Positions 2,518-60,718 of a stretch of 64,000 bases of DNA are shown here, piece by piece. The stretch's first letter is position 1. Each line of letters starts with the position of its first letter. The position numbers were made by a program, and so were the translations under genes. The notes under the pieces were generated by a model, which did not search any database, was not told where the DNA came from, and saw nothing but the letters and a program-made list of their open reading frames with translations. Origin of the DNA: Acidobacteriota bacterium (GTDB lineage Bacteria > Acidobacteriota > Blastocatellia > UBA7656); assembly GCA_040754075.1 (NCBI GenBank), contig JBFMDH010000020.1, positions 62,001-126,000 of the forward strand. The letters run 5' to 3'.

Positions 2518-3168
2518 ATGGAAGCGAAATTAAATTATTTAACCTCTTCAACCGGCGATGTTTTCGAGCAGGATTTCATCGGCGAATGCGAAGTCATCGT
2601 GCGACGCGAAGGGCATAGTCGCGCGCGGCATACGCTGACGGTTGGCAAGCGCACCATCGGACGGTTGCGCTGGATTGGCATGCGCCGGGCGGTTTACGAA
2701 GCCGATGGATTGCAATTTGACATCACGGTTTCGGCTTTCGGCAAACGCATTTCCATCGTCGCGCAGGATGACAAAGAATCGCATCTGATTGAACGTTCGC
2801 GCGCTAATCCAAATAAAGCCGGGATTCGTTTGGAGATGGCAGAAGGCGATAATTTTCGCTTGCTCAGATTTTTAGATAGTCGTCTGCGTTCGGAACAATC
2901 TTTTGTCGTCAACAAACGCTTTTATAATTCGCACCTGTTGGTCTTTCGCTTCAGTGCCCGGCATCGCTCACAAACCACTGCGCGTATTGAGGTGCAGCAT
3001 TCGATGAAATGGGAAGCGCGATTTATGCATAGGCTGTTTGCGCTCGTCTTGTGCAGAATCATTCTTGAGCGCCGCGAATCGGGCGCACAGCGCGTGCGTG
3101 TGAAAGAGAAAAAAGCGCACGGCTTTTCCAGCAGTGTGCGGGTTCGTGAACGCAAGAGGATTTATTAA
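2518..3168 (+). CDS. Conserved-type protein of unknown function
   Basis: 216-aa protein. The ATG at 2518 directly follows the heptad repeat; the frame stays open to 2437, but that part would only translate repeats. The sequence is soluble, with no signal peptide or membrane segment, and strongly basic near the end (VRVKEKKAHGFSSSVRVRERKRIY). Short beta-rich stretches (TVGKRTIGRLRWIG, LQFDITVSAFGKR) suggest a small barrel or sandwich fold. I do not recognise the family. It sits tightly between ThiF and homoserine kinase on the same strand and may be cotranscribed with them. Confidence 0.6.
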   Translation: MEAKLNYLTSSTGDVFEQDFIGECEVIVRREGHSRARHTLTVGKRTIGRLRWIGMRRAVYEADGLQFDITVSAFGKRISIVAQDDKESHLIERSRANPNKAGIRLEMAEGDNFRLLRFLDSRLRSEQSFVVNKRFYNSHLLVFRFSARHRSQTTARIEVQHSMKWEARFMHRLFALVLCRIILERRESGAQRVRVKEKKAHGFSSSVRVRERKRIY

Positions 3169-3230
3169 AAATGTTTTGCGGCAAAGCCGCCTTAATAAGA
3201 CAAGACTTTAAACAACAATTTTTTAACGTC

Positions 3231-4145
3231 ATGACACAAGCATCAACCCGCATTCGCGTTCCTTCATCCACCTCTAACTTAGGGTCGGGATTTGATTCGC
3301 TCGGACTCGCCCTGCAATTTTATTTAACTCTTGATGTCGAACCGGCTGAAGAGATGACATTTACATTTTCCGGTGAAGGCGCAGCCGAACTCAACGCTTC
3401 GACGGAAGACAATTTAATTTTTCAGGCAATGAAATTTATTGCCGCACGCGAAGGCGTCGAACTTCGCCCCGCTCGCTTTCACGTCACCAATGAAATTCCT
3501 CTGGCGCGCGGGCTTGGCTCATCGGCGGCAGCCATCATCGCGGGCTTTTCGGCGTTTGAAGTCGTCACCGGTGTACAACTTTCACAACAGAAGCTGATGG
3601 ATTACGCCACTGAGATGGAACACCACAGCGACAATGTCACGGCTGCATTGCTGGGCGCTTTCGTGGTAAGCTCTGTTGACGAGAGGGGAAAAGTTTTTGC
3701 GGCAAAAGTCGATTTTCCTGAAGCGGTTCGCGCCATCGTGGTGATTCCGAATTTCAAAGTGCGAACTGAAGAAGCGCGCCGGGTCGTCCCGTTGAATCTG
3801 TCACGCGAAGATGCGGTCTTTAATATTCAACGCGCCGCGATGTTTGTCGCAAGCGTTGCCGCCAGGCGTTATGATTTGTTTCGCGAAGCCATGCGTGACC
3901 GTTTGCATCAACCCTATCGCGCGCCGCTGGTTCCGGGACTGGCAGAGATTTTAAATCTCGAAAATGTCGAGGGGCTTTTAGGGGTGGCACTCAGCGGTTC
4001 GGGGCCGACCGTGTTCGCTCTGGCAAATGACGACTTTGAAGGCGTGAAACAGGCTCTGGTGGCGGTTTTCGCGTCACGCGGCATTGAGTGCAAAGCGCAC
4101 ATTGTGGCGGTGGATACCACAGGGCGGGTCATCACCCGGAGTTAA
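3231..4145 (+). CDS. thrB: Homoserine kinase
   Basis: 304-aa GHMP-family kinase that phosphorylates homoserine in threonine biosynthesis. The N-terminal PSSTSNLGSGFDSLG (residues 11-25) and the ATP-binding loop PLARGLGSSAAAIIAG (90-104) match homoserine kinases, and the C-terminal GVALSGSGPTVFAL is GHMP motif 3. Length fits the usual 300 or so residues. The ATG at 3231 is chosen because MTQASTRIRVP aligns with family N-termini; an upstream TTG-type start at 3171 would add 20 atypical residues. No other threonine gene is in the window. Confidence 0.92.
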   Translation: MTQASTRIRVPSSTSNLGSGFDSLGLALQFYLTLDVEPAEEMTFTFSGEGAAELNASTEDNLIFQAMKFIAAREGVELRPARFHVTNEIPLARGLGSSAAAIIAGFSAFEVVTGVQLSQQKLMDYATEMEHHSDNVTAALLGAFVVSSVDERGKVFAAKVDFPEAVRAIVVIPNFKVRTEEARRVVPLNLSREDAVFNIQRAAMFVASVAARRYDLFREAMRDRLHQPYRAPLVPGLAEILNLENVEGLLGVALSGSGPTVFALANDDFEGVKQALVAVFASRGIECKAHIVAVDTTGRVITRS

Positions 4146-4170: not shown

Positions 4171-4710
4171 ATGGCTAAGAAAAAGAGTAACAAAAGTAAA
4201 TTGCCGTTGTTTGCGGGCGTCGTCATCATCGCCCTGATTGGCTTTGGCGGGTATTCATTGATGTCGAAAAAGGCGACCACCCCAAGCCTTGCGGTTTCGC
4301 CGGAACCCTTGACGGTGCAAAGCGTCTCGCAAAGCCTTGAAGCTTATCGCGGCAAAGTCGTCATCCTCGATTTATGGGCGACGTGGTGTGGACCCTGTCG
4401 CGTTGAAATACCGGATTTCATCAAATTGCAAAATCTCTATGGCCCGCAAGGTTTCGCTGTGGTCGGAGTTTCGGTTGACCCGATTGACCAGCGCGGCGGC
4501 GGTGCGGCAGCGGTCGCTCCGTTTATGAAAAACATGGGCATCAATTACAACATCTGGATGGTAACTGATATGAGTGCGCTGGGTCCTTATCAAATGGGTT
4601 CAGGCATTCCCACCACGTACATCATTGACCGCGATGGCAAAGTCGCTCAGAAATATGTTGGGGTGCGCCCTTACAACGTGTTTGAAAACGATATTAAGAA
4701 ATTGCTTTAG
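4171..4710 (+). CDS. Membrane-anchored TlpA/ResA-like thioredoxin
   Basis: 179-aa protein with a lysine-rich N-terminus and one transmembrane segment (about residues 11-30), which would hold a thioredoxin domain in the periplasm. The active site is WCGPC (C73-G-P-C76), followed later by the cis-proline stretch GSGIPTTYIID. Such proteins reduce disulfides in periplasmic targets, for example during cytochrome c maturation. GGAG at 4161-4164 is a good ribosome binding site for the ATG. It is followed directly by the hairpin that leads into murQ. Confidence 0.9.
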   Translation: MAKKKSNKSKLPLFAGVVIIALIGFGGYSLMSKKATTPSLAVSPEPLTVQSVSQSLEAYRGKVVILDLWATWCGPCRVEIPDFIKLQNLYGPQGFAVVGVSVDPIDQRGGGAAAVAPFMKNMGINYNIWMVTDMSALGPYQMGSGIPTTYIIDRDGKVAQKYVGVRPYNVFENDIKKLL

Positions 4711-4713
4711 TGA

Positions 4714-4847
4714 GGATGCAGGGGAGAAGAAACGATGAAGGCGGAACGATGAACGATGAACAGAAAGCGTTTTGCAGTTGTTCATCGTTCATCGTTCCTA
4801 CTTCATACTTTCCTTTCCCTGAATCCTGAATCCCGAATCCTGAATCC
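4714..4847. repeat. Compound heptad-repeat hairpin, families E and B
   Basis: Left side carries GATGAAG, GCGGAAC, GATGAAC, GATGAAC; right side carries GTTCATC, GTTCATC, GTTCCTA, CTTCATA. An outer pair (GGATGCAGGG 4714-4723, CCCTGAATCC 4818-4827) closes it with one mismatch. It continues as four CTGAATC-type units up to two bases before the murQ ATG. The E units also occur at 1270-1388 and the B units at 13143-13177. No Shine-Dalgarno separates it from murQ. Confidence 0.88.
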
Positions 4848-4849
4848 TT

Positions 4850-5758
4850 ATGAATCCCAAGCCTCTCACCGAACAAACCAATCCGAATACCAGAGACATC
4901 GATAGACGCTCGACCCTGGAAATCGTCAAACTCATCAACGAAGAAGACAAACAGGTCGCCGTAGCGGTTTCCCGCGTATTGCCGCAAATCGCCCGCGCCG
5001 TTGATATGATTGTTGAACGCTTGGAAAACGAAGGCAGGTTGTTTTATGTCGGCACCGGAACCAGCGGCAGGCTCGGCGTGTTGGATGCGTCGGAATGTCC
5101 GCCGACCTTTGGCGTTTCACCGGAACTGGTGATTGGCATTATCGCGGGTGGAGACACCGCTTTAAGAAATGCTGTCGAAGGCGCAGAAGACGATTTGCAT
5201 CAGGCGGCAATTGATTTGCACACCATTGGGGTTTCGGCAAAAGATGCAGTGGTTGGCATCTCTGCAAACGGCAATACGCCTTATACGCTTGGCGCGTTGG
5301 AATTCGCGCAGGAACTCGGCGCGGCGACGATTGCAATTACCTGCAACGAAGGGTCGCAGATGACGCAAATCGCCGAGGTGTCAATCGTGCCGGTGGTTGG
5401 CGCGGAAGTCATCGCCGGTTCTTCGAGAATGAAAGCCGGTACGGCGCAAAAGATGATTTTGAATATGCTCTCGACGGCGACCATGATTCGTCTGGGGTTG
5501 GTCTACAGCAACCTGATGTCGAATTTGAAAGCGACCAATGAAAAGTTGCGTCGTCGCGCCAGAGCGATACTTGCCGAAGAAATGGGTTTAAGTGAAGAAG
5601 CCGCGGCGCGCATTTTTGCTGAGGCAGGTGATGATTTGAAAATCGCTCTATTGATGACCCGCGCTAATTTGTCACGCGAAGACGCCGAAACGACTTTGCA
5701 AAAATTCAACGGCTCGGTGCGCCGGGCGTTAGATAGTTTTATATTACCGGAGAACTAA
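4850..5758 (+). CDS. murQ: N-acetylmuramic acid 6-phosphate etherase
   Basis: 302-aa SIS-domain enzyme that cleaves the lactyl ether of MurNAc-6-phosphate to GlcNAc-6-phosphate during peptidoglycan recycling. The opening LTEQTNPNTRDID and the SIS loop FYVGTGTSGRLGVLDASE (residues 66-82, with the family's catalytic glutamate at E82) are diagnostic, and GSSRMKAGTAQKMILNM matches the conserved sugar-phosphate region. NagA, which would take the next step by deacetylating GlcNAc-6-phosphate, is encoded about 1 kb downstream on the same strand. Translation start has no visible Shine-Dalgarno because the preceding bases are repeat sequence. Confidence 0.95.
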   Translation: MNPKPLTEQTNPNTRDIDRRSTLEIVKLINEEDKQVAVAVSRVLPQIARAVDMIVERLENEGRLFYVGTGTSGRLGVLDASECPPTFGVSPELVIGIIAGGDTALRNAVEGAEDDLHQAAIDLHTIGVSAKDAVVGISANGNTPYTLGALEFAQELGAATIAITCNEGSQMTQIAEVSIVPVVGAEVIAGSSRMKAGTAQKMILNMLSTATMIRLGLVYSNLMSNLKATNEKLRRRARAILAEEMGLSEEAAARIFAEAGDDLKIALLMTRANLSREDAETTLQKFNGSVRRALDSFILPEN

Positions 5759-5830
5759 CTAGCGAAGTCTTTTAATTGCTGAAATGCGAATGAAGAAAAA
5801 TATTATCCACTCATGGAATTGAACCTCATA

Positions 5831-6262
5831 ATGTCAAAAAAGCAACTCTTTATTAAAGCCATATCTTTAATTGTAGCTTTGGGGGGCGTCGGTCATTTAG
5901 CACTTGCTCATTGTGTTCAGGAGGATAAAGTTTGTTATTTTATTGTTTCAGACACAAGTGATTCGGTGATGCGTACAGTTGATATTTTGCTTGATGAAGA
6001 AGATTTTACAGAACCCAAGCTGCGTAGCTTGATGACCCAATTCAGAACGAAGTATTCGGAGCCTAATATGATTGTTATGTTGTTTTCTAAAGTGGAACGC
6101 TATAACCAATCACGAATGGGGCATGCGAGTTTGCGAACTAAAAAGACCTATGCTGAAGGGGTATTAATTTATAGAGAAAATGATCTCATTATACGATTCA
6201 AAAAGTCGTCGGAAAGCGACCTGCAAACCGTGGTAGTGCAAGGAAAAGATTCCTTCAAGTGA
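5831..6262 (+). CDS. Small exported protein of unknown function, AT-rich gene
   Basis: 143 aa from ATG 5831 (an ATG at 5813 would add six residues). The N-terminus MSKKQLFIKAISLIVALGGVGHLALA looks like a Sec signal peptide with cleavage after ALA. The mature part has two nearby cysteines (HCVQEDKVCYF) and a basic, polar C-terminus. The gene is clearly AT-richer than its neighbours, with TTA, ATA and AAA codons common, which suggests recent acquisition. No family recognised. Confidence 0.55.
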   Translation: MSKKQLFIKAISLIVALGGVGHLALAHCVQEDKVCYFIVSDTSDSVMRTVDILLDEEDFTEPKLRSLMTQFRTKYSEPNMIVMLFSKVERYNQSRMGHASLRTKKTYAEGVLIYRENDLIIRFKKSSESDLQTVVVQGKDSFK

Positions 6263-6333
6263 TAAAACTACCTTTTTATTAGAAGCAATCCCTCATACTC
6301 TGTGTTGAGATAAGCGCCGAAGAGATTTTTAGT

Positions 6334-6768
6334 ATGTCGTTATTCATCCCCTACAAAAATGGAAGCTATAAAGGCGCGGGCGTGTGGTTCGACAGCAAAC
6401 CCGCAGCAGGCAATTTCACCAGTGAATTCACGGTCATGGATGAAGGCGACACCAAAGCCCAAATAACCAGGCGCGTCTTTTTCAAAGAAGACGGTTCGCT
6501 GCTTTATGAAGAACATTCGACGGTGAGGTTCACCTTCACGCGCTTTCCGTTTTTTGAAGTCACCATCGCTTACGAAGGCAAAACGACCAGCGGACAAGGC
6601 TATCTGTTTAATAAGGTTTTTCACTACCAGATGGACGTCAGCGATGATGTGAGTATCGAAAACACCTATGTGTTTGGCGAAGACCGGGTTGAGCTATTCG
6701 GTTCATCGAGCAACAAAGGCAATCCCACGGTGTGGCACGAAACATTGAATTTCATCATGGCTGAATAG
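6334..6768 (+). CDS. Hypothetical 144-aa soluble protein
   Basis: Soluble, beta-rich sequence with alternating hydrophobic and charged residues (FTSEFTVMDEGD, TVRFTFTRFPFFEVTIAY, VSIENTYVFGEDRVELFG), compatible with a small lipocalin- or barrel-like fold. No signal peptide. Codon use is like the local average, unlike the AT-rich gene before it. It stands between murQ and nagA on the same strand with no clear functional link. I do not recognise the family. Confidence 0.55.
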   Translation: MSLFIPYKNGSYKGAGVWFDSKPAAGNFTSEFTVMDEGDTKAQITRRVFFKEDGSLLYEEHSTVRFTFTRFPFFEVTIAYEGKTTSGQGYLFNKVFHYQMDVSDDVSIENTYVFGEDRVELFGSSSNKGNPTVWHETLNFIMAE

Positions 6769-6817
6769 TCGGTCAGTACCGCCTGTCTTAGCGGACGGGT
6801 TAAATGGGTTGATAAAG

Positions 6818-8020
6818 ATGTTTCAACTGCTTTTACATAACGCCCAAATTATTCTTAAAGACCGCGTCCAACCGGGCGGCGTGTTAATTCGTGAAGGGCG
6901 CATCGCCGAGGTCTTTACCGATGCGGATACGCCTGTGGGACTCGCCGCTGATGAAAAACTTGATTTACAAAATCGCTTTCTCGCGCCCGGCTTGATTGAT
7001 GTTCACATTCACGGCTCCGCAGGCATTGATGTACAGAACGCCGACCAGCAGGGTTTAGCAAAACTTTCTCAATTTTTACTTGGTGAAGGCGTGACCGGTT
7101 ATTTTGCGACCTTTGTGCCGACCGATGATGCGGGGTATCGACGAGCCATTCAGGAAATTGAAACTTACATTGCAAATCAGGATAACGGTCAGACAAACGG
7201 CGCGCGAATTCTCGGCATACATTTTGAGGGACCTTTCGTAAGCGAAGAAAAATGCGGCGCATTACAACGCGAGCATTTCAGAACCTATGACGGAAACCCC
7301 GACACCATCCGCGTGTTCACCCATCCCACGAATTCACCGGTAATTTATAAACGATTGATGACGCTTGCGCCGGAACTGAGAGGCGGGTTGAATTTGATCA
7401 GCGAACTCACCAGCAAAGATGTTCGCTCGTTTATCGGTCACACCACCGCGCAACCTGAAATTTTAGACGCAGCGGTTCGCGCCGGCGCGCATCACATTAC
7501 TCATTTCCCCAACGCTCTTGAACCGTTGCACCATCGCAAACCCGGCATCGTCGCGTGGGGACTTTTAAATACCGAAGTGACCTTTGATTGCATTGCCGAT
7601 TTTCATCATGTTCATCCCTTGATGCTGCAACTGATGCACAAATCGAAAAGTGCAGAGCGGATGGCTTTGATTAGTGATGCCATCGCCCCTGCGGGACTCG
7701 GCGAAGGTGAATTCACGGTCTGGGGCGATAAAATCGAAGTTCTGGGCGGCATCACGGCTTTAATGGAAGGCGCAGCCAAAGGCACGATTGCGGGTTCGGT
7801 CATCACCATGCGCGACGCTTTGAAAAATATCGCGAGTTTAAATATTCCGATTTACGAAGCCTCACGTATGGCGTCATACGTTCCGGCTGTTGCGGCAGGT
7901 GTGGCTTTGAATTACGGCGCAATCGAAGCAGGCAAACGCGCCGACCTGATGGCTTTTGACGAAAATTTCACTATTGGTTTTGCAAGCCTCGGCGGCTCAA
8001 TTGCTCTCGACCAACGATAG
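6818..8020 (+). CDS. nagA: N-acetylglucosamine-6-phosphate deacetylase
   Basis: 400-aa amidohydrolase that converts GlcNAc-6-phosphate to glucosamine-6-phosphate and acetate. Metal-binding HIHG is at residues 63-66 (LIDVHIHGSAGID), HFEGPF supplies the conserved acidic ligand, and later GHTTAQ, HITHFPNAL and LISDAIAPAG match NagA signatures. ATG 6818 is preferred over an in-frame TTG at 6809. It fits with MurQ upstream as a cell-wall amino-sugar salvage pathway. The last 24 bases overlap the end of the convergent membrane-protein gene. Confidence 0.92.
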   Translation: MFQLLLHNAQIILKDRVQPGGVLIREGRIAEVFTDADTPVGLAADEKLDLQNRFLAPGLIDVHIHGSAGIDVQNADQQGLAKLSQFLLGEGVTGYFATFVPTDDAGYRRAIQEIETYIANQDNGQTNGARILGIHFEGPFVSEEKCGALQREHFRTYDGNPDTIRVFTHPTNSPVIYKRLMTLAPELRGGLNLISELTSKDVRSFIGHTTAQPEILDAAVRAGAHHITHFPNALEPLHHRKPGIVAWGLLNTEVTFDCIADFHHVHPLMLQLMHKSKSAERMALISDAIAPAGLGEGEFTVWGDKIEVLGGITALMEGAAKGTIAGSVITMRDALKNIASLNIPIYEASRMASYVPAVAAGVALNYGAIEAGKRADLMAFDENFTIGFASLGGSIALDQR

Positions 8021-8788
8021 AGCGGGGCTATCTTCCAACTCATTCTGGTCTGCCTGAACATCTGCGGCATTCCTTATTTTGAAATATTCAACGAAGGCGA
8101 TAAGCAAAAACGTCGTTCCTATCACTTCACAACTTTCTTCGATAAACCCGCGAACATTCCGTGACAGGATTACTTTTATAAAGTTCCCTTCAATCGCTTC
8201 AAACAGGATGGCAGTGCTCCAACAAAGTATCCCGGCTAGCGCAAGCAGCATGATTTTTTTGCAGCGCCAAAACGCCGCAATGAAAAAGGTGAACATCCCC
8301 AAAGCGGTTGCAATAATGAAGGGAAGTAAAACGAAAATCCAATCGCCTGCGCCTTCCTGAAAATAATTTTGCAATTGGCCTATTGGTTGGCGATTTAATA
8401 CCGCCACCAGATTTTCATGAATCTTTGCGGTCTCACTGATGGAAATTGCCATCAGCACTGCGGCAATCAATAACCAGGCGAGCCGATGCGTCCATTTCAA
8501 TTTGGTAAACGGCGAAGTTGTTCTACTGTTCAACCAGGCAACGATTGCCGCGAGAAACAAAATAGCGCTGGAGTACCAGGTGGCAAGGTTCGCCTCGTTT
8601 CGCAAATCCACTTGCTGGCTGATAAACGCCAGCAACGGTTTTTGATGTAAGGTTAGCGGCGCTGTCGCAATGGTCAACAGATAATTCAAAACGATCAGAA
8701 ATAAACTGGCGGCAATCAAGATGATAGACAACCATTTAATTTCTTTTCGCCCGAATTGAAGAATTGTTACTTGAGGATGATTTTTCAA
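7997..8788 (-). CDS. Polytopic membrane protein of unknown function
   Basis: 263 aa with about six transmembrane segments (near residues 18-40, 68-87, 103-122, 149-173, 180-200 and 220-240) and a polar, acidic C-terminal tail. No transporter or enzyme signature was recognised; conserved-looking charged residues lie in the loops (ISETAKIHENL, LFEAIEGNF). It is convergent with nagA and overlaps its 3' end by 24 bp, so both stop codons lie inside the opposite gene. Confidence 0.6.
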   Translation of the reverse strand: MKNHPQVTILQFGRKEIKWLSIILIAASLFLIVLNYLLTIATAPLTLHQKPLLAFISQQVDLRNEANLATWYSSAILFLAAIVAWLNSRTTSPFTKLKWTHRLAWLLIAAVLMAISISETAKIHENLVAVLNRQPIGQLQNYFQEGAGDWIFVLLPFIIATALGMFTFFIAAFWRCKKIMLLALAGILCWSTAILFEAIEGNFIKVILSRNVRGFIEESCEVIGTTFLLIAFVEYFKIRNAADVQADQNELEDSPALSLVESN

Positions 8789-9005
8789 TTCTTCCTACTC
8801 AAGATATAAAGTGAATGTGGGAGAATCGGTCATAGATAATCAAGAAATTCCCCCATCAACCAGACCTCGGCTATCTTAGCTAACTTTTTGCGAAAGTGAA
8901 ATTGGTTAGCCGGAATCAATCCGGGCATCAATCAATTCATCGCTCAGATGGTTCCAAAAGCCTTGATGAAAATTATGAACGCTGAACCACGAAATAAGTC
9001 GGTTA
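8789..9005. other. Intergenic stretch without a gene
   Basis: AT-rich spacer upstream of the minus-strand membrane-protein gene and next to the peptidase-gene fragment. No open frame with good coding character and no recognisable RNA was found. It presumably holds the promoter of the membrane-protein gene, but no confident -35/-10 pair stands out. Confidence 0.4.
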
Positions 9006-9115
9006 AATTATTTCCCTTCTTCATTCGGTTTTTCGCCCCAGATGTAGCGGCTTTTGTTCCATCATCTGGCGTTGTTGTTTGGGTTTGTCGATGCCGTGAC
9101 CGAAACCTTTGAAGA
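9006..9115 (-). pseudogene. Duplicated 3'-end fragment of the S9 peptidase gene
   Basis: These 110 bp match 9942-10065, the 3' end of the intact S9 peptidase gene, with a 14-bp deletion (bases corresponding to about 9988-10001) and two substitutions. The fragment encodes FKGFGHGIDKPKQQRQ and MMEQ, including the catalytic histidine region, then is frameshifted by the deletion. Similarity stops two bases beyond the peptidase stop codon on one side and four bases before the PIN-toxin stop codon on the other. It is therefore a broken copy of a gene end lying distal to the toxin-antitoxin pair. Confidence 0.88.
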
Positions 9116-9119
9116 AACC

Positions 9120-9539
9120 TCAACTCATCCAATTTTCAACTTTCAGATTTGGAATTTGTCTAAAATGTTTGACGTTTCTGGTAACTAATGTTGCCTGGCT
9201 GGCAAGGGCTATACTGGCAATCAACAAATCTGCGCGCCCGATTTTGCGATAAACAGAAACTGCGCGCAATTGATCAAAGCATTCACAGGCGGCTTGATTC
9301 AAGGGAATCACCATAAATTGCGCAAGGAATTCTTCCGTCTTATCAAGCCAATGCTGAGCGCGTAAAAGTTCCGTGCCGGTCGCGGCTTTCAAAACAAAAC
9401 TAAACCGCCCCTGCATCAATTCAATAATTGAGATGACAGTTGTTGCAATTTCATCTTCTGCAAGTTCCTGAAATTTACCAATCACCTGCGGCTGCCCGGT
9501 TTGAAGATGAGTGAGTATATCGGTGTCGAGCAGATACAT
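9120..9539 (-). CDS. PIN-domain toxin, VapC family ribonuclease
   Basis: 139-aa PIN-domain protein. The acidic metal-binding residues are present: D5 (MYLLDTDIL), E40 (SIIELMQGR) and D104 (GRADLLIASIAL), followed by the typical VTRNVKHFRQIPNLKVENW ending. VapC toxins are magnesium-dependent RNases that cut tRNA or rRNA when their antitoxin is lost. Its ATG overlaps the antitoxin stop by one base (TAATG), so the two are translationally coupled. All catalytic residues are intact, so it is probably functional. It lies between the two copies of the S9 peptidase 3' end. Confidence 0.9.
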   Translation of the reverse strand: MYLLDTDILTHLQTGQPQVIGKFQELAEDEIATTVISIIELMQGRFSFVLKAATGTELLRAQHWLDKTEEFLAQFMVIPLNQAACECFDQLRAVSVYRKIGRADLLIASIALASQATLVTRNVKHFRQIPNLKVENWMS

Positions 9540-9835
9540 TATTCATCCGTTTCAACTTCAGGTCGTCCGCGCTGTTTATAAATTTCAGTCCGCAACGCCG
9601 CCATATTTTCATCATCGGCAAACGCGCCAGCCATCTGCAAAATTCTGGCACGTTTATCTTGTGCGCGGAGCCAATCATCAATCGCCGCTTTAAGGAACCG
9701 CCAGTTCTCTTCAATTTTTCGCCCAGGAACTCGCCCTTGCGCGGCTTGCCGTTCCACAACTTCTACGGGCAATCGCAAGTAGTCAGCTACCTCTTCAAGG
9801 GTTAATACTTCGGATGCGGTTATTACTTGACTCAT
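9539..9835 (-). CDS. HTH (excisionase-type) antitoxin partner of the PIN toxin
   Basis: 98 aa. Residues about 10-57 form a MerR/excisionase-like winged helix (LTLEEVADYLRLPVEVVERQAAQGRVPGRKIEENWRF), which would bind the operon promoter; the C-terminal 35 residues (MAGAFADDENMAALRTEIYKQRG) would wrap and neutralise the PIN toxin. The gene precedes the toxin and overlaps it by one base, the usual antitoxin-first order. This HTH type is an alternative to the more common AbrB- or RHH-type VapB. The antitoxin role is inferred from context. Confidence 0.8.
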   Translation of the reverse strand: MSQVITASEVLTLEEVADYLRLPVEVVERQAAQGRVPGRKIEENWRFLKAAIDDWLRAQDKRARILQMAGAFADDENMAALRTEIYKQRGRPEVETDE

Positions 9836-9943
9836 ACTGGCTACCTCGATTTTTCTCTATCGCATTAGCGGATTTATCTTAGCATACACAAATACTCAAT
9901 TCACTTTCGATGATAAGCAAGAATCAAGCGCAACAGTGTAGAA

Positions 9944-11929
9944 TTATTTCCCTTCTTCATTCGGTTTTTCGCCCCAGATGTAGCGGCTGAACCATTCATA
10001 ATTTTGTTCCATCACCTGGCGTTGTTGTTTGGGTTTGTCGATGCCGTGACCGAAGCCTTTGAAGACTGCAAGTTTCACCGGCACGCCTTTGTCTTTCAAT
10101 GCCTGGTACAACTCATAAGCATTGGGTATGGGCACCCGTCTATCGAGTTCGCCGTGTTGAATAAGGGTCGGGGTTTGCGCGCTTTTGACATAAGAAATCG
10201 GTGAGGTTTTGCGATAAATTTCCGGGTCGTCCCAGGGCGTCGCTTTCAGGTATTGACGGGTGAACGGATGAATGTCGGTGTTGACATAGTAAGTCATCCA
10301 GTTGGAAATTCCTGCCCCTACGGATACGGCTTTGAATCTGTCGCTTGATGTGGTGATGAATGCCGAAATATAGCCGCCTTGACTCCAGCCCATCGAACCG
10401 ACGCGGTCGCGGTCAACCAAGCCTTGGGCAATCAGAAAATCGACGCCTGAGATGACATCCCAGTAATCGCCCACACCAAGGTTGCGCACATTGAGCGAAC
10501 GAAATTTTTCACCGTAACCGGCAGAACCGCGATAATTGGGGCGCAAAATCACTGCGCCTTTGGCGGCAAACATTTCAATCGGATAGGTGCGGTCGGCATT
10601 GAGCACGGGTGTATCAACGCCCGTGGGTCCACCGTGAATGACCACCAGTAAGGGATATTTTTTCGACGCATCGAAATTCGCCGGTTTGATTAATACGCCT
10701 TCGATTTCCGTGCCATCTGTCGATTTCCAGCGAATGATTTCGCGGGTGGCGAGTTTAAAATCTTTGAACTGTTCGCCCATCGCGGTGAGGCGTTTGCCTT
10801 CGAGTGGTTTCACGGCGGAGACAAAAATTTCCGGGTACTGGTTGGCAGCAGCCTGAATGAATGCCGCCTGTTTGAAATCTTTGGTGAACGATACCTGGGC
10901 GACAGTCATTTGCGATTTGCTCATTTGCTCGATGGCTTTGGTTGAGGGGTTCAAACGAAACAGCGATGCGTAGACCCGTTGTTGTGCGGAAAAATAGATG
11001 CCATCGGGTGACCAGGCAAGCATTCGCGGGATTTCATCAAAACTCGCGGATAAAGTCTGCGGCGCGCCGCCATCACTCGATACAACCGCCAGATAAGAAT
11101 TCAGGTAATAGAAAAACTCCTGCGCGTTGGCGGTTTCAAAGGCAATCTGTTTTCCATCAGGCGACCAGATGGGGTTGTTATCGGGTCCCAGGGTTTCGAC
11201 AATTTTTTTGACCGCTTTATCAGTAACCTTCAAAACATAAATATCTGCCGTATGGGATGAGCCTAAATCGGCGTCTCTGGTTGCTGAAAAAGCGATGCGC
11301 GTGGCATCGGGCGACCAGTTGAAACTGCCTACGGTAAAACTTGTGCCTTCGGTGAGGCGTTTGGCTTCCGGCGGGGTTTTGATTTCATCGGCGACATCAA
11401 TCATCCAGAGGTGTGTAAAGTTGTAATCGCTTTCGACGATTTCATACTCGCCATATTTTTCTTCGCGCTCTTTTCGAGCCTTCGATTTCGGGTCAACCAT
11501 CGTAAAAGCGATGCGCCGTCCATCGGGCGACCAACTAAAGCCATTCACACCGGTTTCAACATTGGTCAGTTGCACGGCTTCGCCGCCCACAGGTGAAATC
11601 AGATAGAGTTGGCGTTTATCGTTGCGGTCTGAAACGAAAGCGAGGCGGCGTCCGTCAGGCGACCATTGTGGCGCGGAACTCGATTTTTTCGCGTTGGTCA
11701 GTTGGAAGCGTTCGCCGGTTGCGGGGTTGGCAATCCAGATTTCGGTTTCCCAGGCATTGTCCGTCCAATTGACCTCTTGAACCTGATAAGCGATGAAACG
11801 ACCGTCGGGCGAAATGCGCGGATTTGATGCGCTTTTCATACTGAGCGATTGATCAATGGTTGGCGTTTGCGCAAAGCCCGAAAAGACCAGTGAGAAAACC
11901 AGAAGCGAAGCAGAAATCAATGTTTTCAT
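9944..11929 (-). CDS. Secreted S9-family peptidase (dipeptidyl/acylaminoacyl-peptidase type)
   Basis: 661-aa serine peptidase. Residues 1-20 form a Sec signal peptide ending FAQ, followed by a TolB/WD40-like beta-propeller with repeated WSPDG blades (for example APQWSPDGRRLAF), then an alpha/beta-hydrolase domain. The catalytic triad is readable as S516 (GWSQGG), D596 (GELDRR) and H628 (GFGHG). Such enzymes clip dipeptides or acyl-amino acids from oligopeptides in the periplasm. GAGGGATG precedes the ATG. Its last 124 bp are duplicated downstream at 9006-9115, beyond the toxin-antitoxin pair. Confidence 0.92.
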   Translation of the reverse strand: MKTLISASLLVFSLVFSGFAQTPTIDQSLSMKSASNPRISPDGRFIAYQVQEVNWTDNAWETEIWIANPATGERFQLTNAKKSSSAPQWSPDGRRLAFVSDRNDKRQLYLISPVGGEAVQLTNVETGVNGFSWSPDGRRIAFTMVDPKSKARKEREEKYGEYEIVESDYNFTHLWMIDVADEIKTPPEAKRLTEGTSFTVGSFNWSPDATRIAFSATRDADLGSSHTADIYVLKVTDKAVKKIVETLGPDNNPIWSPDGKQIAFETANAQEFFYYLNSYLAVVSSDGGAPQTLSASFDEIPRMLAWSPDGIYFSAQQRVYASLFRLNPSTKAIEQMSKSQMTVAQVSFTKDFKQAAFIQAAANQYPEIFVSAVKPLEGKRLTAMGEQFKDFKLATREIIRWKSTDGTEIEGVLIKPANFDASKKYPLLVVIHGGPTGVDTPVLNADRTYPIEMFAAKGAVILRPNYRGSAGYGEKFRSLNVRNLGVGDYWDVISGVDFLIAQGLVDRDRVGSMGWSQGGYISAFITTSSDRFKAVSVGAGISNWMTYYVNTDIHPFTRQYLKATPWDDPEIYRKTSPISYVKSAQTPTLIQHGELDRRVPIPNAYELYQALKDKGVPVKLAVFKGFGHGIDKPKQQRQVMEQNYEWFSRYIWGEKPNEEGK

Positions 11930-56729: not shown

Positions 56730-56945
56730 AAAATCACGAACCTTTTCTGCGATGATTAAGTATGGTTTTGACATCAAAAAGAGATTAAGTATAATCCTGG
56801 CTGTCAGAAAAATTTTACAGTTTTCCTCTTGCACCCCTTGAGCCAGGTGAATTCATTGGCTCTGAGCGGAAATTCAGTGAGCAGCTTTGCAAAGCCAGTT
56901 GCAAGACTGTCAAAAACAAAATAAATTACGAAAGCTGATGTGAGT
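56730..56945. other. Intergenic stretch without a gene
   Basis: Spacer between the kinase and the 20-bp tandem array. It is AT-rich with no coding character and no strong promoter or terminator seen. With the array it makes a 423-bp gap up to the AraC-type gene. Confidence 0.4.
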
Positions 56946-57085
56946 CGGCTTCAACCATCTTTCGTTGGCTTCAACCATCTTTCGTTGGCTTCAACCATCT
57001 TTCGTTGGCTTCAACCATCTTTCGTTGGCTTCAACCATCTTTCGTTGGCTTCAACCATCTTTCGTTGGCTTCACCGTCATTTGTC
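56946..57085 (+). repeat. 20-bp tandem repeat array, seven units
   Basis: Six near-perfect copies of TGGCTTCAACCATCTTTCGT (56946-57065; first copy starts with C) and a degenerate seventh (57066-57085). The copies have no spacers, so it is not CRISPR. It lies 68 bp before the AraC-type ATG and is open in that gene's frame. Confidence 0.95.
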
Positions 57086-57152: not shown

Positions 57153-57512
57153 ATGGATAAACGAATCGCGGCAGCGATAGATTACATCAGCGAGAATATC
57201 CATCAACAACTTTCAGTGGATGAAATCGCTCATCACGTCAATTTATCTTCTTCACGATTGCGTCATTTATTCAAAAATGAAACCGGCGAAAGTATCTACC
57301 ACTATATCAGGCGGCTTAGGATGGAAGCCGCAAGAGAACTTTTAGAAACCTCTTTTCTCACAACCAAACAAGTGATGTGTAAAGTTGGCATCAATGACGA
57401 AAGCCGTTTCACGCGCGACTTCAAAAGTTTGTTCGGTTGTTCACCCGGTTGCCATCGGGCTTCCTGCAAATCTACAAGCGACCAAAGAAAAGTCAAAATC
57501 GCCAATAAATAG
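57153..57512 (+). CDS. AraC-type helix-turn-helix protein (DNA-binding domain only)
   Basis: 120 aa from ATG 57153. Two HTH motifs of the AraC/XylS domain are visible: LSVDEIAHHVNLSSSRLRHLFKNETGESIYHYIRRLRMEAARELLETS and LTTKQVMCKVGINDESRFTRDFKSLFGCSPGCHRASC. There is no N-terminal ligand domain. The frame stays open upstream to GTG 56940, where the 20-bp array would encode a 71-residue repeat peptide; this longer form is possible but less likely. Probably regulates the following peptide operon, 113 bp downstream. Confidence 0.8.
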   Translation: MDKRIAAAIDYISENIHQQLSVDEIAHHVNLSSSRLRHLFKNETGESIYHYIRRLRMEAARELLETSFLTTKQVMCKVGINDESRFTRDFKSLFGCSPGCHRASCKSTSDQRKVKIANK

Positions 57513-57625
57513 TCGCTTTCGCCTATTGTCTTGCAAACGCTATTCGCAGTAGAGTGTGGGCAAGTTCAATATTGTTTGGCAAGGATAAGTTGATTCAATC
57601 TATCAACCTTGAAGGAGGATAATCC

Positions 57626-57868
57626 ATGAAAGACAAACTGAAATTCGTTCTTTCCCTAATTCTGTTGCTTTCCTCAATCCTGATGACCTTCACACAAAGT
57701 ACAAAAGGAGCGGCTTGTCCTTTGGAAAGTTGTGGAGCTAGAAGTGATCGACAATGTTGGTGTTGCGTTTTGCAGTCTGAAAATAGCGACAGTACCTCTT
57801 GCACTTACCACAATGACAATGTTTATTGTCGTCAGGATAGTGGAGGATGCGGAGGAGATTTGGAGTAG
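57626..57868 (+). CDS. Cysteine-rich secreted peptide 1
   Basis: 80 aa with GAAGGAGG upstream. Signal peptide about 1-29 (VLSLILLLSSILMTFTQSTKGA). The mature part has eight cysteines (C31, C36, C44, C46, C47, C59, C68, C75) with the pattern C-x4-C-x9-CC-VLQSE-x-CTYHND-x3-C. It is a paralogue of the next gene, with two extra cysteines, so perhaps four disulfides. Size and pattern resemble bacteriocin-like or protease-inhibitor-like peptides, but no family is recognised. Confidence 0.8.
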   Translation: MKDKLKFVLSLILLLSSILMTFTQSTKGAACPLESCGARSDRQCWCCVLQSENSDSTSCTYHNDNVYCRQDSGGCGGDLE

Positions 57869-57963
57869 TTACTTCAAGCAAATGCCGAAGGTGAAGCACA
57901 TCATAAGGCGTGCTATCTACAAGTTCAAATTCTTGAGTTTGAGCTTAGTTGCAAGGAGCATTT

Positions 57964-58182
57964 ATGAAGACTAATTTGAAATTCTCAATCGCTGTAACAG
58001 CGTTCATTTTTTCTTTAATATTCACTCAGGTTGTTGCTGGGGCAGGGTGCCAGTCAGAATCCTGTACACCTAGAAGTGACGGGCGTACCTGGTGTTGTTC
58101 ACTTCAAAGTGAAGGAAGCGGCACTTGCACTTACCACAACGATACCAGTCATTGCTATAAGCAAGGCGGTGATGAGGAGTAA
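57964..58182 (+). CDS. Cysteine-rich secreted peptide 2
   Basis: 72 aa from ATG 57964 with AAGGAG ahead. Signal peptide about 1-26. Six cysteines (C29, C34, C44, C45, C55, C64) line up with six of the eight in peptide 1, sharing the WCC, LQSE and CTYHND blocks. The acidic tail GGDEE follows. The pair looks like a tandem duplication that diverged. Function unknown; periplasmic or secreted disulfide-bonded peptide. Confidence 0.8.
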   Translation: MKTNLKFSIAVTAFIFSLIFTQVVAGAGCQSESCTPRSDGRTWCCSLQSEGSGTCTYHNDTSHCYKQGGDEE

Positions 58183-58292
58183 AGAAAAATTAAGTTCGCT
58201 TGATTGGCGAATATTGTGTGAGTCGTTCATCGTTTTTCTCGCTACGTAGCTTTCCACAAACAACGCAAGTTGGGCGGTTTTCAAGGAGTTGT

Positions 58293-60203
58293 ATGAAAGC
58301 GTTCTGCTGCAAAATTCTTTCAACTATTCTGCTTATCAGCTTGCTTCAAAGCTTAGGGTTGGCATGGCAGAAGCAAGAGACTTCTCAAGCCACCAAAGAT
58401 AAAGCTTCTTCTCCTAAACAAGGCGCGGCGGAAGACAAACCAATTGACGTTATTCAAGAGCAAAAGTCGGCTGAAAAGAAGTTGCTGGAAAGAGTCTTTT
58501 ATATTCTTGATGGGCTGGCTAATTCCAAAGAGATTGAAGACAAATTAGAAGCCGCCCATATGAAAGCTGACATCGCCGCCTTGGTTTGTGATTATGGCAA
58601 TAAACCCAAAGCCGTTGAAGTACTCAAAAAAAGTCTGACGGATATAGCGGAAGAGATTGCCAATCCAGATAGACAGAAGCAAGCTGATTCATCAAAAATC
58701 CAAGAATTAACCATTCGGGTGGCTGACACCGGCTGTAAATGCGATCCCTCACTTAGAAGCTGGTTTGTGAAAGAATTGGAGCGTTTGCGCAACCTCAAAA
58801 CTAAACCGAATGACGATAAGGCTGAAGACGAAGCGCCCGTAGTCGCAGAAGAGACTTGGGGAACCAAACCTTCAATGCGACGGCAAATCGCCGCAGATAT
58901 ATTGACGCAGGCAGCGCATGAAAAAATCGCGGGCGGAAAGCTTGATGAAGCCAGGCAATTGTTATCTCAATCGCTCAACTACTGTCTGAGTGTTCCATTC
59001 ATTACAGCCTTGATCAGATTAAAAGAGAATCAGGCAGATGTCGCCTCTAATCTTTATTTTAAGGCTTCGCGAATTGTGCAAGTTATGCCATCGGGTGCCG
59101 AAGTAGGTGCCTTAAACTTTGGCTTAAAACCCCTGTTTGGCATCCGCATCGGGCAAGAATCTCCTCCTTTGGATAAGCAACCAATCATTGAAACCTATTT
59201 GCTGGCGGTGAGCGCGCTCATCAACTGTCCACAATCATCTTTAGCTGCAAAATCACCAGATATTTTGAGGATGGTTAAAGATAGCTTGCCTTTGTATGCG
59301 ACATTTCAACCGGCAATGCATCCACAAATCGAATTATGGGTCGCGGAGGGCATGAAACATTTGCCCGCTAATGAACGGAGCGCGGTTGAGCAAGTCCCCT
59401 TCGCCCCGCAATCATTGGAACAGCAAGTTTCAAAACTTGAGGATATTGCCTATAAATCTGCTGATGAAAAAGAACGCGACCTGGCTTACGCTTCTATTGC
59501 CTCTACCTACATCACCCAGGCGAAACTTGAAGCAGCGTTCAAATTCATTTCCCGAATTGCCGATATAAATCTCAAGAATGAGTTGCTTGATGAAATGAGG
59601 TATAAACGGATGTCCTTTGAGTTGAGCAAGGCTACCGAACTGCTTCCGATATATCTTGATATATCAAGCGTCTCATCCCTGACGCTGAGGGTGAAGTTAT
59701 ATATGCAATTGGGACAGGTTGCAGCAAAAAAAGATTCGTTTCTGGCGCATCAGGCTTTGGATGAAGCTGCGCGACTGACCAACGAGAATGTCGGACTATC
59801 AGCAACTCACTCACACTTTTTATTTGGCATTGCCAGTTTATATTCGGAGTTCGATTCAATCAGAGCTTTTGAGGTTCTCAGCAATGCGGTTAAATCCGTC
59901 AGCAAGCATCAAGACCAGCCGGCGAGCAAATGGGGACACGCGATTGCCGAAGTAGCCATCGTGAAATTTGATTCCGCGTGGCGGTTTTCAAGAACCGTAT
60001 TTGATGACCCGAATCAGTATAAGAAGCCATATGACCTTTCAGCGTTCAGGAAATTATCATCAATAGATATTGACCGAGTGTTATTGATTGCCGATTACCT
60101 TGAAGACAAACCTCTCCAAGCAAACGCAAAATACGAAGTGTGCGCCGGAATCTTGCTCTTCGCAAAAGCGAAAAAGGAGAAGTCGGCAAATACTTCTCAA
60201 TAA
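58293..60203 (+). CDS. Large exported helical-repeat protein of the peptide operon
   Basis: 636 aa from ATG 58293 (AAGGAG at 58283-58288). Signal peptide 1-24 (ending LGLAW). A charged linker follows (KQETSQATKDKASSPKQ), then helical repeats of TPR-like or solenoid type (DEARQLLSQSLNYC, ERDLAYASIASTYITQAKLEAAFKFISRIADINLKNELL, RAFEVLSNAVKSV). A CKCDPS pair occurs near residue 146. No enzyme motif seen. It may be a periplasmic scaffold or receptor for the small peptides. Less GC-rich than the core genes. Confidence 0.7.
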   Translation: MKAFCCKILSTILLISLLQSLGLAWQKQETSQATKDKASSPKQGAAEDKPIDVIQEQKSAEKKLLERVFYILDGLANSKEIEDKLEAAHMKADIAALVCDYGNKPKAVEVLKKSLTDIAEEIANPDRQKQADSSKIQELTIRVADTGCKCDPSLRSWFVKELERLRNLKTKPNDDKAEDEAPVVAEETWGTKPSMRRQIAADILTQAAHEKIAGGKLDEARQLLSQSLNYCLSVPFITALIRLKENQADVASNLYFKASRIVQVMPSGAEVGALNFGLKPLFGIRIGQESPPLDKQPIIETYLLAVSALINCPQSSLAAKSPDILRMVKDSLPLYATFQPAMHPQIELWVAEGMKHLPANERSAVEQVPFAPQSLEQQVSKLEDIAYKSADEKERDLAYASIASTYITQAKLEAAFKFISRIADINLKNELLDEMRYKRMSFELSKATELLPIYLDISSVSSLTLRVKLYMQLGQVAAKKDSFLAHQALDEAARLTNENVGLSATHSHFLFGIASLYSEFDSIRAFEVLSNAVKSVSKHQDQPASKWGHAIAEVAIVKFDSAWRFSRTVFDDPNQYKKPYDLSAFRKLSSIDIDRVLLIADYLEDKPLQANAKYEVCAGILLFAKAKKEKSANTSQ

Positions 60204-60217
60204 GGGGAAGTCAAAAG

Positions 60218-60718
60218 ATGCCAAGCAAGAACGATATTAAAAACGCCCTCGCGTGGATAATGATTAGCACGTCCCTGGGTTTAATGGTCTATAACACCGT
60301 ACTCTACAGTAAAACTCGAACCATCCCTGAAAAGCCTAAGCCAGAAATACCAAACGGTACAAATCTATCTGGGCTTCAGTTGAAACGCCCGAATGGGGAA
60401 AGCTTTGTTATTCCGGCAACTGGCAAATGCTTGATTGCTTTTTTGACTGTTGGTTGTGGCGCTTGTGAACAACAAGTTGAGCCGCTTAATCAAGTTGTTG
60501 AAGCAAAGCCGTATGTCAAAGTGTTGGGAGTTTTTTCAGAAAGCGCCAATAAAGTAGCTTCATTTGAATTATCATCCGCTCCAAAGTTCATCTATCTGAT
60601 GGATTATGAAGGTCAGCTAAGAGGGCAAATTAATTTGACGACATTTCCCCAAACCGTAGAAATCAATGACGGATTCGTTACACGAAGCTGGGTAGGACTC
60701 CAAAAGTCCTTCGATTAA
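60218..60718 (+). CDS. Membrane-anchored thioredoxin-like protein
   Basis: 166 aa from ATG 60218 with AAGGGGAAG ahead. One membrane segment at about residues 10-30, then a thioredoxin fold in the periplasm: KCLIAFLTVGCGACEQQVEPLNQVV, with the redox pair C-G-A-C, and a cis-proline region LTTFPQTVEINDG. It would reduce, oxidise or isomerise disulfides in the cysteine-rich peptides encoded upstream in the same operon. Confidence 0.82.
   Translation: MPSKNDIKNALAWIMISTSLGLMVYNTVLYSKTRTIPEKPKPEIPNGTNLSGLQLKRPNGESFVIPATGKCLIAFLTVGCGACEQQVEPLNQVVEAKPYVKVLGVFSESANKVASFELSSAPKFIYLMDYEGQLRGQINLTTFPQTVEINDGFVTRSWVGLQKSFD

Follow-up and report, generated by a model that had tools for sequence, protein, structure and literature searches.

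Cysteine-rich secreted peptides, a thioredoxin-like protein and a class-specific, predicted helical protein form a candidate module in Blastocatellia

Described systems and the Blastocatellia locus

In several described systems, a secreted peptide containing cysteines is encoded beside a protein with a thioredoxin fold and a CxxC motif, which enhances the activity of the peptide, as in the cases of PedC and pediocin PA-1, BdbA and sublancin 168, and BlpGst; PedC, the CxxC thioredoxin-like protein of the pediocin operon, raises the potency of pediocin (PMC4919988). We investigated a locus that shares this arrangement in a 64,000-nucleotide stretch of DNA (the window) from the 7.58-Mb genome of an Acidobacteriota bacterium of the class Blastocatellia (assembly GCA_040754075.1, contig JBFMDH010000020.1, positions 62,001 to 126,000 of the forward strand). 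Here, a gene for an AraC-type helix-turn-helix (HTH) protein is followed by genes for two Sec-exported cysteine-rich peptides, a large exported protein predicted to be helical (BIG) and a membrane-anchored thioredoxin-like protein (Trx). The adjacent CxxC thioredoxin-like gene of the pediocin-type operons is present in the window module, whereas its peptides differ from those of the pediocin type in being Sec-type, mostly acidic and hypervariable, the operon contains no bacteriocin exporter, and a large, predicted helical partner is added. Indeed, a pattern search of 44 peptides detected neither a YGNGV box nor a double-Gly leader, and Sec-type N-termini were found instead.

A second likeness is to MauD and MauE, involved in methylamine dehydrogenase maturation in Paracoccus, because in one related locus (L283) a Trx-like gene and a MauE gene lie by a small exported cysteine-rich protein gene; the window, in contrast, encodes neither MauE nor methylamine dehydrogenase subunits, and its peptides are hypervariable. 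According to a summary in the decRiPPter study, MauE has been speculated to aid disulfide formation in methylamine dehydrogenase, and the same study describes three Streptomyces candidate families of ribosomally synthesized and post-translationally modified peptides (RiPPs) in which mauE homologues, in one case also a mauD homologue, lie beside precursors with at least eight cysteines (PMC7794033). These candidates belong to another phylum and, as far as their description there goes, no BIG-type partner is reported for them, the comparison being one of descriptions only. Bacterial cis-defensins of the cysteine-stabilized (CS)-alpha-beta fold, one of which comes from Acidobacteria, are likewise small and secreted; they have variable loops and at least three disulfides, and the text on them mentions no thioredoxin or oxidoreductase (PMC11561630). 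The defensin framework C-C-x3-C-...-C-x-C fails for both window peptides and matches one of the 44 related peptides. Finally, ResA/StoA/TlpA-type thioredoxins share the fold, N-terminal anchor, CxxC and cis-Pro with the module Trx, which differs from them in being genetically tied to cysteine-rich secreted peptides. A search of the literature collection available yielded no publication describing the module in Blastocatellia, and an NVEALA search was likewise empty. The locus would thus combine the known logic of a dedicated oxidoreductase and a disulfide peptide with a new, class-specific partner.

Recurrence of the module and properties of its components

The first-pass annotation, made from the letters of the window, had proposed that these genes form a system, and this proposal is strongly supported, as peptide, Trx and BIG genes occur together in many separate loci. 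Inspection of gene neighbourhoods showed that other Sec-exported cysteine-rich peptides are encoded immediately 5' of BIG genes elsewhere in the class, in families different from that of the window. A profile for one of these sequence types (type II, C-x-DLxxC ... GC-x-I-x-C-x2-G ... C), searched independently of BIG, gave strong matches in 7 of 162 class genomes (G002, G014, G018, G022, G026, G034 and G145), all of them on the same strand and immediately 5' of BIG, with interrupted copies in G022 and G034. In addition, about 16 further loci have a TlpA-like gene adjoining BIG, and almost every one of them also encodes a cysteine-rich secreted peptide of yet another sequence type. Among 147 BIG genes, a peptide was present beside 17 of the 21 with an adjacent Trx, versus 7 of the 126 without one (Fisher p=2e-13), with an opposite-strand background of 6 of 147.

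Furthermore, in a held-out test, a profile built from 15 module Trx proteins (alignment A6) was used to find new Trx genes, and 21 of these were obtained in 20 further loci. Within 2 kb, 17 of the 21 had a secreted peptide with at least four cysteines encoded on the same strand, whereas 2 had one on the other strand; when six or more cysteines were required, the numbers were 16 and 0. Random positions gave 10%. Outside Blastocatellia, eight Trx relatives have a cysteine-rich secreted peptide within 1.5 kb and no BIG, and we therefore regard Trx and peptide as the wider core, and BIG as the class-specific partner. The first-pass annotation had also named what would speak against a system, namely peptides always found alone or belonging to a known family with another job; we looked for both and found neither. 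On these gene neighbourhoods, the existence of a recurrent three-part module is well supported, and the recurrent sets suggest that the class has a family of secreted peptide systems that has yet to be described.

The two window peptides indeed share, in their mature parts, the cysteine pattern ascribed to them, C-x4-C ... CC-x-LQSE ... CTYHND-x3-C. They are 51% identical to each other, both begin with M-K-x2-L-K-F, and their mature forms, with 8 and 6 cysteines, have net charges of -5 and -4. Just two copies of this type exist in their own genome; outside it, a search of 396 phylum genomes gave nothing better than chance, and a search across the contig collection found zero relatives. A single-peptide search through 58 relatives gave chance matches only, and one locus (L007) was inspected and then dropped. 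Neither peptide belongs to a Pfam or NCBIfam family; peptide 1 scored 15.9 bits against DUF6520, for which the cut-off is 25.4, and NVEALA gave no match. Since the peptide type is confined to its own genome and the locus of the closest BIG orthologue lacks a peptide, the module claim for the window rests on architecture.

Across loci we compiled 45 non-redundant peptides, in a partly hand-curated list with signal peptides called by a simple hydrophobicity rule. The number of cysteines is even in 41 of them (p=5e-9), which is what complete pairing among the cysteines would give. The mature peptides comprise about 40-75 aa, mostly with 4, 6, 8 or 10 cysteines and frequent CxC, CxxC or CC pairs; their cores are hypervariable, the sequence types differ strongly between loci, and some loci encode several divergent peptides. 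Eight peptides carry an S-x2-QL or QQL motif directly before the presumed cleavage site, which may be a conserved leader on a variable core. The net charge has a median of -3 (35 negative, 6 positive), and because the peptides are acidic, a cationic lytic or classical cationic antimicrobial mode is unlikely.

The identification of the last gene product as thioredoxin-like was weak from the single protein, for which the Redoxin match in Pfam (E=0.004) lies below the cut-off, and became firm by profile (ResA, E=4e-15) and fold. The AlphaFold2 model of the window Trx (pLDDT, the predicted local distance difference test, 90) matched DsbE (E=7e-10) and ResA (2e-9) in Foldseek, and the protein has CGAC, a cis-Pro in TFPQ and an N-terminal membrane-anchor helix (4-32); the predicted fold is ResA/StoA/DsbE-like. 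In L152 (780-1514), Trx carries a C-terminal cysteine-containing extension, SSCGYCIRDGLVYSVGAVIKIGNHRWRCNEGGQW, perhaps a Trx-peptide fusion.

The BIG profile matched in 140 of 162 Blastocatellia genomes, often in multiple copies, and in one phylum sample BIG was found in 24 of 32 class members and in none of 265 genomes of other Acidobacteriota classes; in the genomes searched, BIG is a multi-copy family restricted to Blastocatellia. Pfam, NCBIfam and PADLOC contain no family for it, and the best known repeat profile, TPR_8, reached 13.5 bits against a cut-off of 25.7. Its AlphaFold2 model is all-helical and solenoid-like (pLDDT 78), and Foldseek against solved structures gave generic helical-repeat or solenoid matches only, with low TM-scores. 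A search with a two-sequence BIG alignment returned, as its sole match, the record of the closest orthologue, L040 (39% identity), from a genome of the same family as that of the window. There, Trx is cut after the membrane anchor (8228-8485) and the peptides are missing, and L040 is probably a decaying module. In a quick tree of BIG with several long branches, 17 changes are required to explain the module label, versus a mean of 28 after shuffling, and well-supported branches alone call for at least 12; the label is thus clustered, yet was gained or lost many times. Two peptide-less BIG genes lie downstream of M56/BlaR1-like genes (L043, 8611-11440; L057, 8586-11153), with a BlaI-like gene too in L043, which suggests another role of BIG.

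Proposed function and alternative explanations

We favour, with somewhat better than even confidence, an explanation in which hypervariable secreted peptides acquire their disulfide-bonded fold from an oxidoreductase of the envelope that is dedicated to them, and act together with an alpha-solenoid partner; the window would be one instance. The peptides would pass the inner membrane via Sec, and Trx would set their disulfides in the periplasm as an oxidase or isomerase, together with MauE in one locus. Such folding is plausible given the ResA/StoA-like fold, the even cysteine counts and MauE in one locus, and the oxidase, reductase and isomerase modes are all candidates. BIG, as a periplasmic or secreted solenoid, would bind the folded peptides as a chaperone, receptor, anchor or immunity-type partner, which its modelled helical-repeat shape fits, while the AraC-type protein would control the module genes. 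The first-pass annotation had also considered BIG as an exporter; nothing in BIG points to a channel, and the peptides carry their own Sec-type signals. The hypervariable cores, the several divergent peptides in some loci and an association with BIG that was gained or lost repeatedly suggest that the peptides are fast-diversifying secreted recognition molecules, most likely for interactions with other cells, and inhibitor- or bacteriocin-like rather than cationic-lytic. Antagonism, inhibition and signalling are all candidate roles.

Several observations weigh against this explanation. The window peptide type has no relative elsewhere in the phylum genomes searched, and at the closest BIG orthologue Trx is truncated and a peptide is missing. 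About 116 of the 147 BIG genes lie without a nearby peptide or Trx, and BIG therefore has other, perhaps older, functions. Six modules carry a different large protein (LARGE2) in place of BIG, and the L232 Trx lacks the second cysteine of CxxC. Two of the nearest solved relatives of Trx, ResA and StoA, act as reductases. In addition, the parity, Fisher and held-out counts are uncorrected for relatedness.

The nearness of Trx to ResA, StoA and CcmG/DsbE, together with the many CxC, CxxC and CC pairs in the peptides, would also fit redox- or metal-handling envelope proteins, whose cysteines bind metal or carry electrons and are kept reduced by Trx, as apo-cytochromes are by ResA and CcmG, with BIG as a scaffold. 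However, no metal-ligand or CxxCH motif is common to the peptide types, an even cysteine count in an otherwise free sequence is typical of a disulfide scaffold, and cytochrome, copper or Fe-S maturation genes are not prominent among the recurrent module neighbours. We regard this explanation as unlikely.

Also improbable, in our judgement, is a role of the peptides in cell-cell signalling or as secreted regulators, with BIG as their receptor and a link to the AraC-type gene or M56-type systems. A short AraC-type gene indeed precedes the other genes of the window operon, as it does those of four further Trx/peptide loci (L269, L270, L274 and L279), M56/BlaR1-like and BlaI-like genes adjoin some BIG genes, and several divergent peptides occur in some loci. 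Nevertheless, an AraC-type gene was absent from most of the Trx/peptide loci retrieved, the AraC-type protein lacks a ligand-binding or sensor domain, and the M56 neighbours were seen at peptide-less BIG genes.

The MauE gene beside Trx and peptide in L283, and the row of Trx-like, beta-propeller-like, peptide and BIG genes in L054 and L130, could further indicate MauA-like peptides, that is, small disulfide-laced subunits of an envelope enzyme matured by Trx and MauE, whose large subunit would be the beta-propeller-like protein or BIG. The peptide cores, however, vary far more than those of an enzyme subunit should, genes for methylamine dehydrogenase subunits were not noticed, and MauE was found in one locus only, which makes this quite improbable. 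An accidental cluster of unrelated genes, side by side in an AT-richer island, would account for a window peptide type found in one genome only and for the absence of peptides at the closest BIG orthologue, but it is largely refuted and was rejected, as a very remote prospect, by the statistically strong recurrence of the same three components in separate loci.

Returning to dedicated folding of secreted disulfide peptides, a broader form of it is a tentative possibility, about which we have more doubt than confidence: a phylum-level arsenal or recognition code of Acidobacteriota, in which each set of hypervariable disulfide-rich peptides would have its dedicated membrane thioredoxin, with class-specific helical-repeat capture or display in Blastocatellia, and which would be categorically new rather than a bacteriocin variant. 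The Trx profile provides a sequence handle for otherwise invisible hypervariable secreted peptides in a major, mostly uncultured phylum, and gives context to BIG, an unannotated class-specific family of large proteins. If the peptides act on other cells, they would offer stable disulfide scaffolds from a source not yet exploited; should they be signals or inhibitors, they would open the envelope biology of hard-to-grow bacteria.

Locus layout and variant loci

All of the open reading frames (ORFs) named in the first-pass annotation were found, on one strand (57153-60718), preceded by purine-rich, ribosome-binding-like sequences (Table 1). Their reported tight spacing is fair only for BIG and Trx, which are 14 bp apart, because the gaps between the two peptide genes and between peptide 2 and BIG are about 95-110 bp. 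The region is AT-richer, as noted before: the GC content of the module genes is 42-45% (38-45% at third codon positions, GC3), versus 51-52% in the gene on either side and 49.5% over the whole window. Two further features, absent from the earlier list, are a sigma-70-like site about 360 bp 5' of the HTH start and a tandem array with the repeat unit GGCTTCAACCATCTTTCGTT, which may have a regulatory role or may have expanded recently by slippage.

Table 1. Features of the window locus and of the variant loci
Locus	Feature	Position	Strand	Remarks
Window	Sigma-70-like promoter, TTGACA-16-TATAAT	56768..56795	+	12/12, consensus match alone; between upstream histidine kinase and HTH gene
Window	Perfect tandem repeat, 20-bp unit x 6.3	56947..57073	.	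100% matches; between promoter-like site and HTH gene
Window	Stand-alone AraC-type HTH regulator, 119 aa	57153..57512	+	HTH_18 E=1.1e-21, HTH_AraC E=2e-14 (Pfam)
Window	Sec-exported cysteine-rich peptide 1, 80 aa	57626..57868	+	8 Cys
Window	Sec-exported cysteine-rich peptide 2, 72 aa	57964..58182	+	6 Cys; peptide 1 paralogue
Window	BIG, exported protein, 636 aa	58293..60203	+	Predicted all-helical, alpha-solenoid-like
Window	Trx, membrane-anchored thioredoxin-like protein, 166 aa	60218..60718	+	CGAC, cis-Pro (TFPQ)
L054	Trx-like and beta-propeller-like genes	9154-11237		Ahead of peptide and BIG
L130	Trx-like and beta-propeller-like genes	7188-9220		Ahead of peptide and BIG
L274	LARGE2	5237-6781		
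L275	LARGE2	4630-6126		
L279	LARGE2	4728-6251		
L280	LARGE2	5054-6475		
L281	LARGE2	2596-4095		
L282	LARGE2	4818-6458		

The gene set of the window, with AraC-type gene, peptides, BIG and Trx, is closely resembled by those of L269 and L270, which consist of a short AraC-type gene, peptide(s), an extra gene for about 230-257 aa, Trx and BIG. L274 and L279 contain an AraC-type gene, peptide(s), Trx and LARGE2, and in L053 an AraC-type ORF precedes the peptide. Among the held-out loci, six contain BIG and six others contain LARGE2, an exported protein of about 500 aa, directly after Trx. Three LARGE2 proteins tested had no Pfam match, and LARGE2 was rejected as a relative of BIG, with no detectable relation (hhalign probability 9%). 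The PADLOC anti-phage defence profiles matched neither the window proteins nor the one LARGE2 protein searched.

The MauE gene of L283 (3397-3870; PF07291, E=2.5e-23) overlaps the Trx gene and is followed by the cysteine-rich peptide; among the fetched loci, this is the only one with MauE beside Trx, and the window operon has none. L054 and L130 come from different families, and their arrangement recalls gene neighbourhoods of Bacteroidota in which 6-bladed propellers occur beside small exported peptides. Finally, in L232, L268, L269 and L270, an exported protein of about 220-260 aa with a motif like NRLAPELYSEKLTLRITLMNLPGA is encoded upstream of Trx and is possibly a fourth component of the module.

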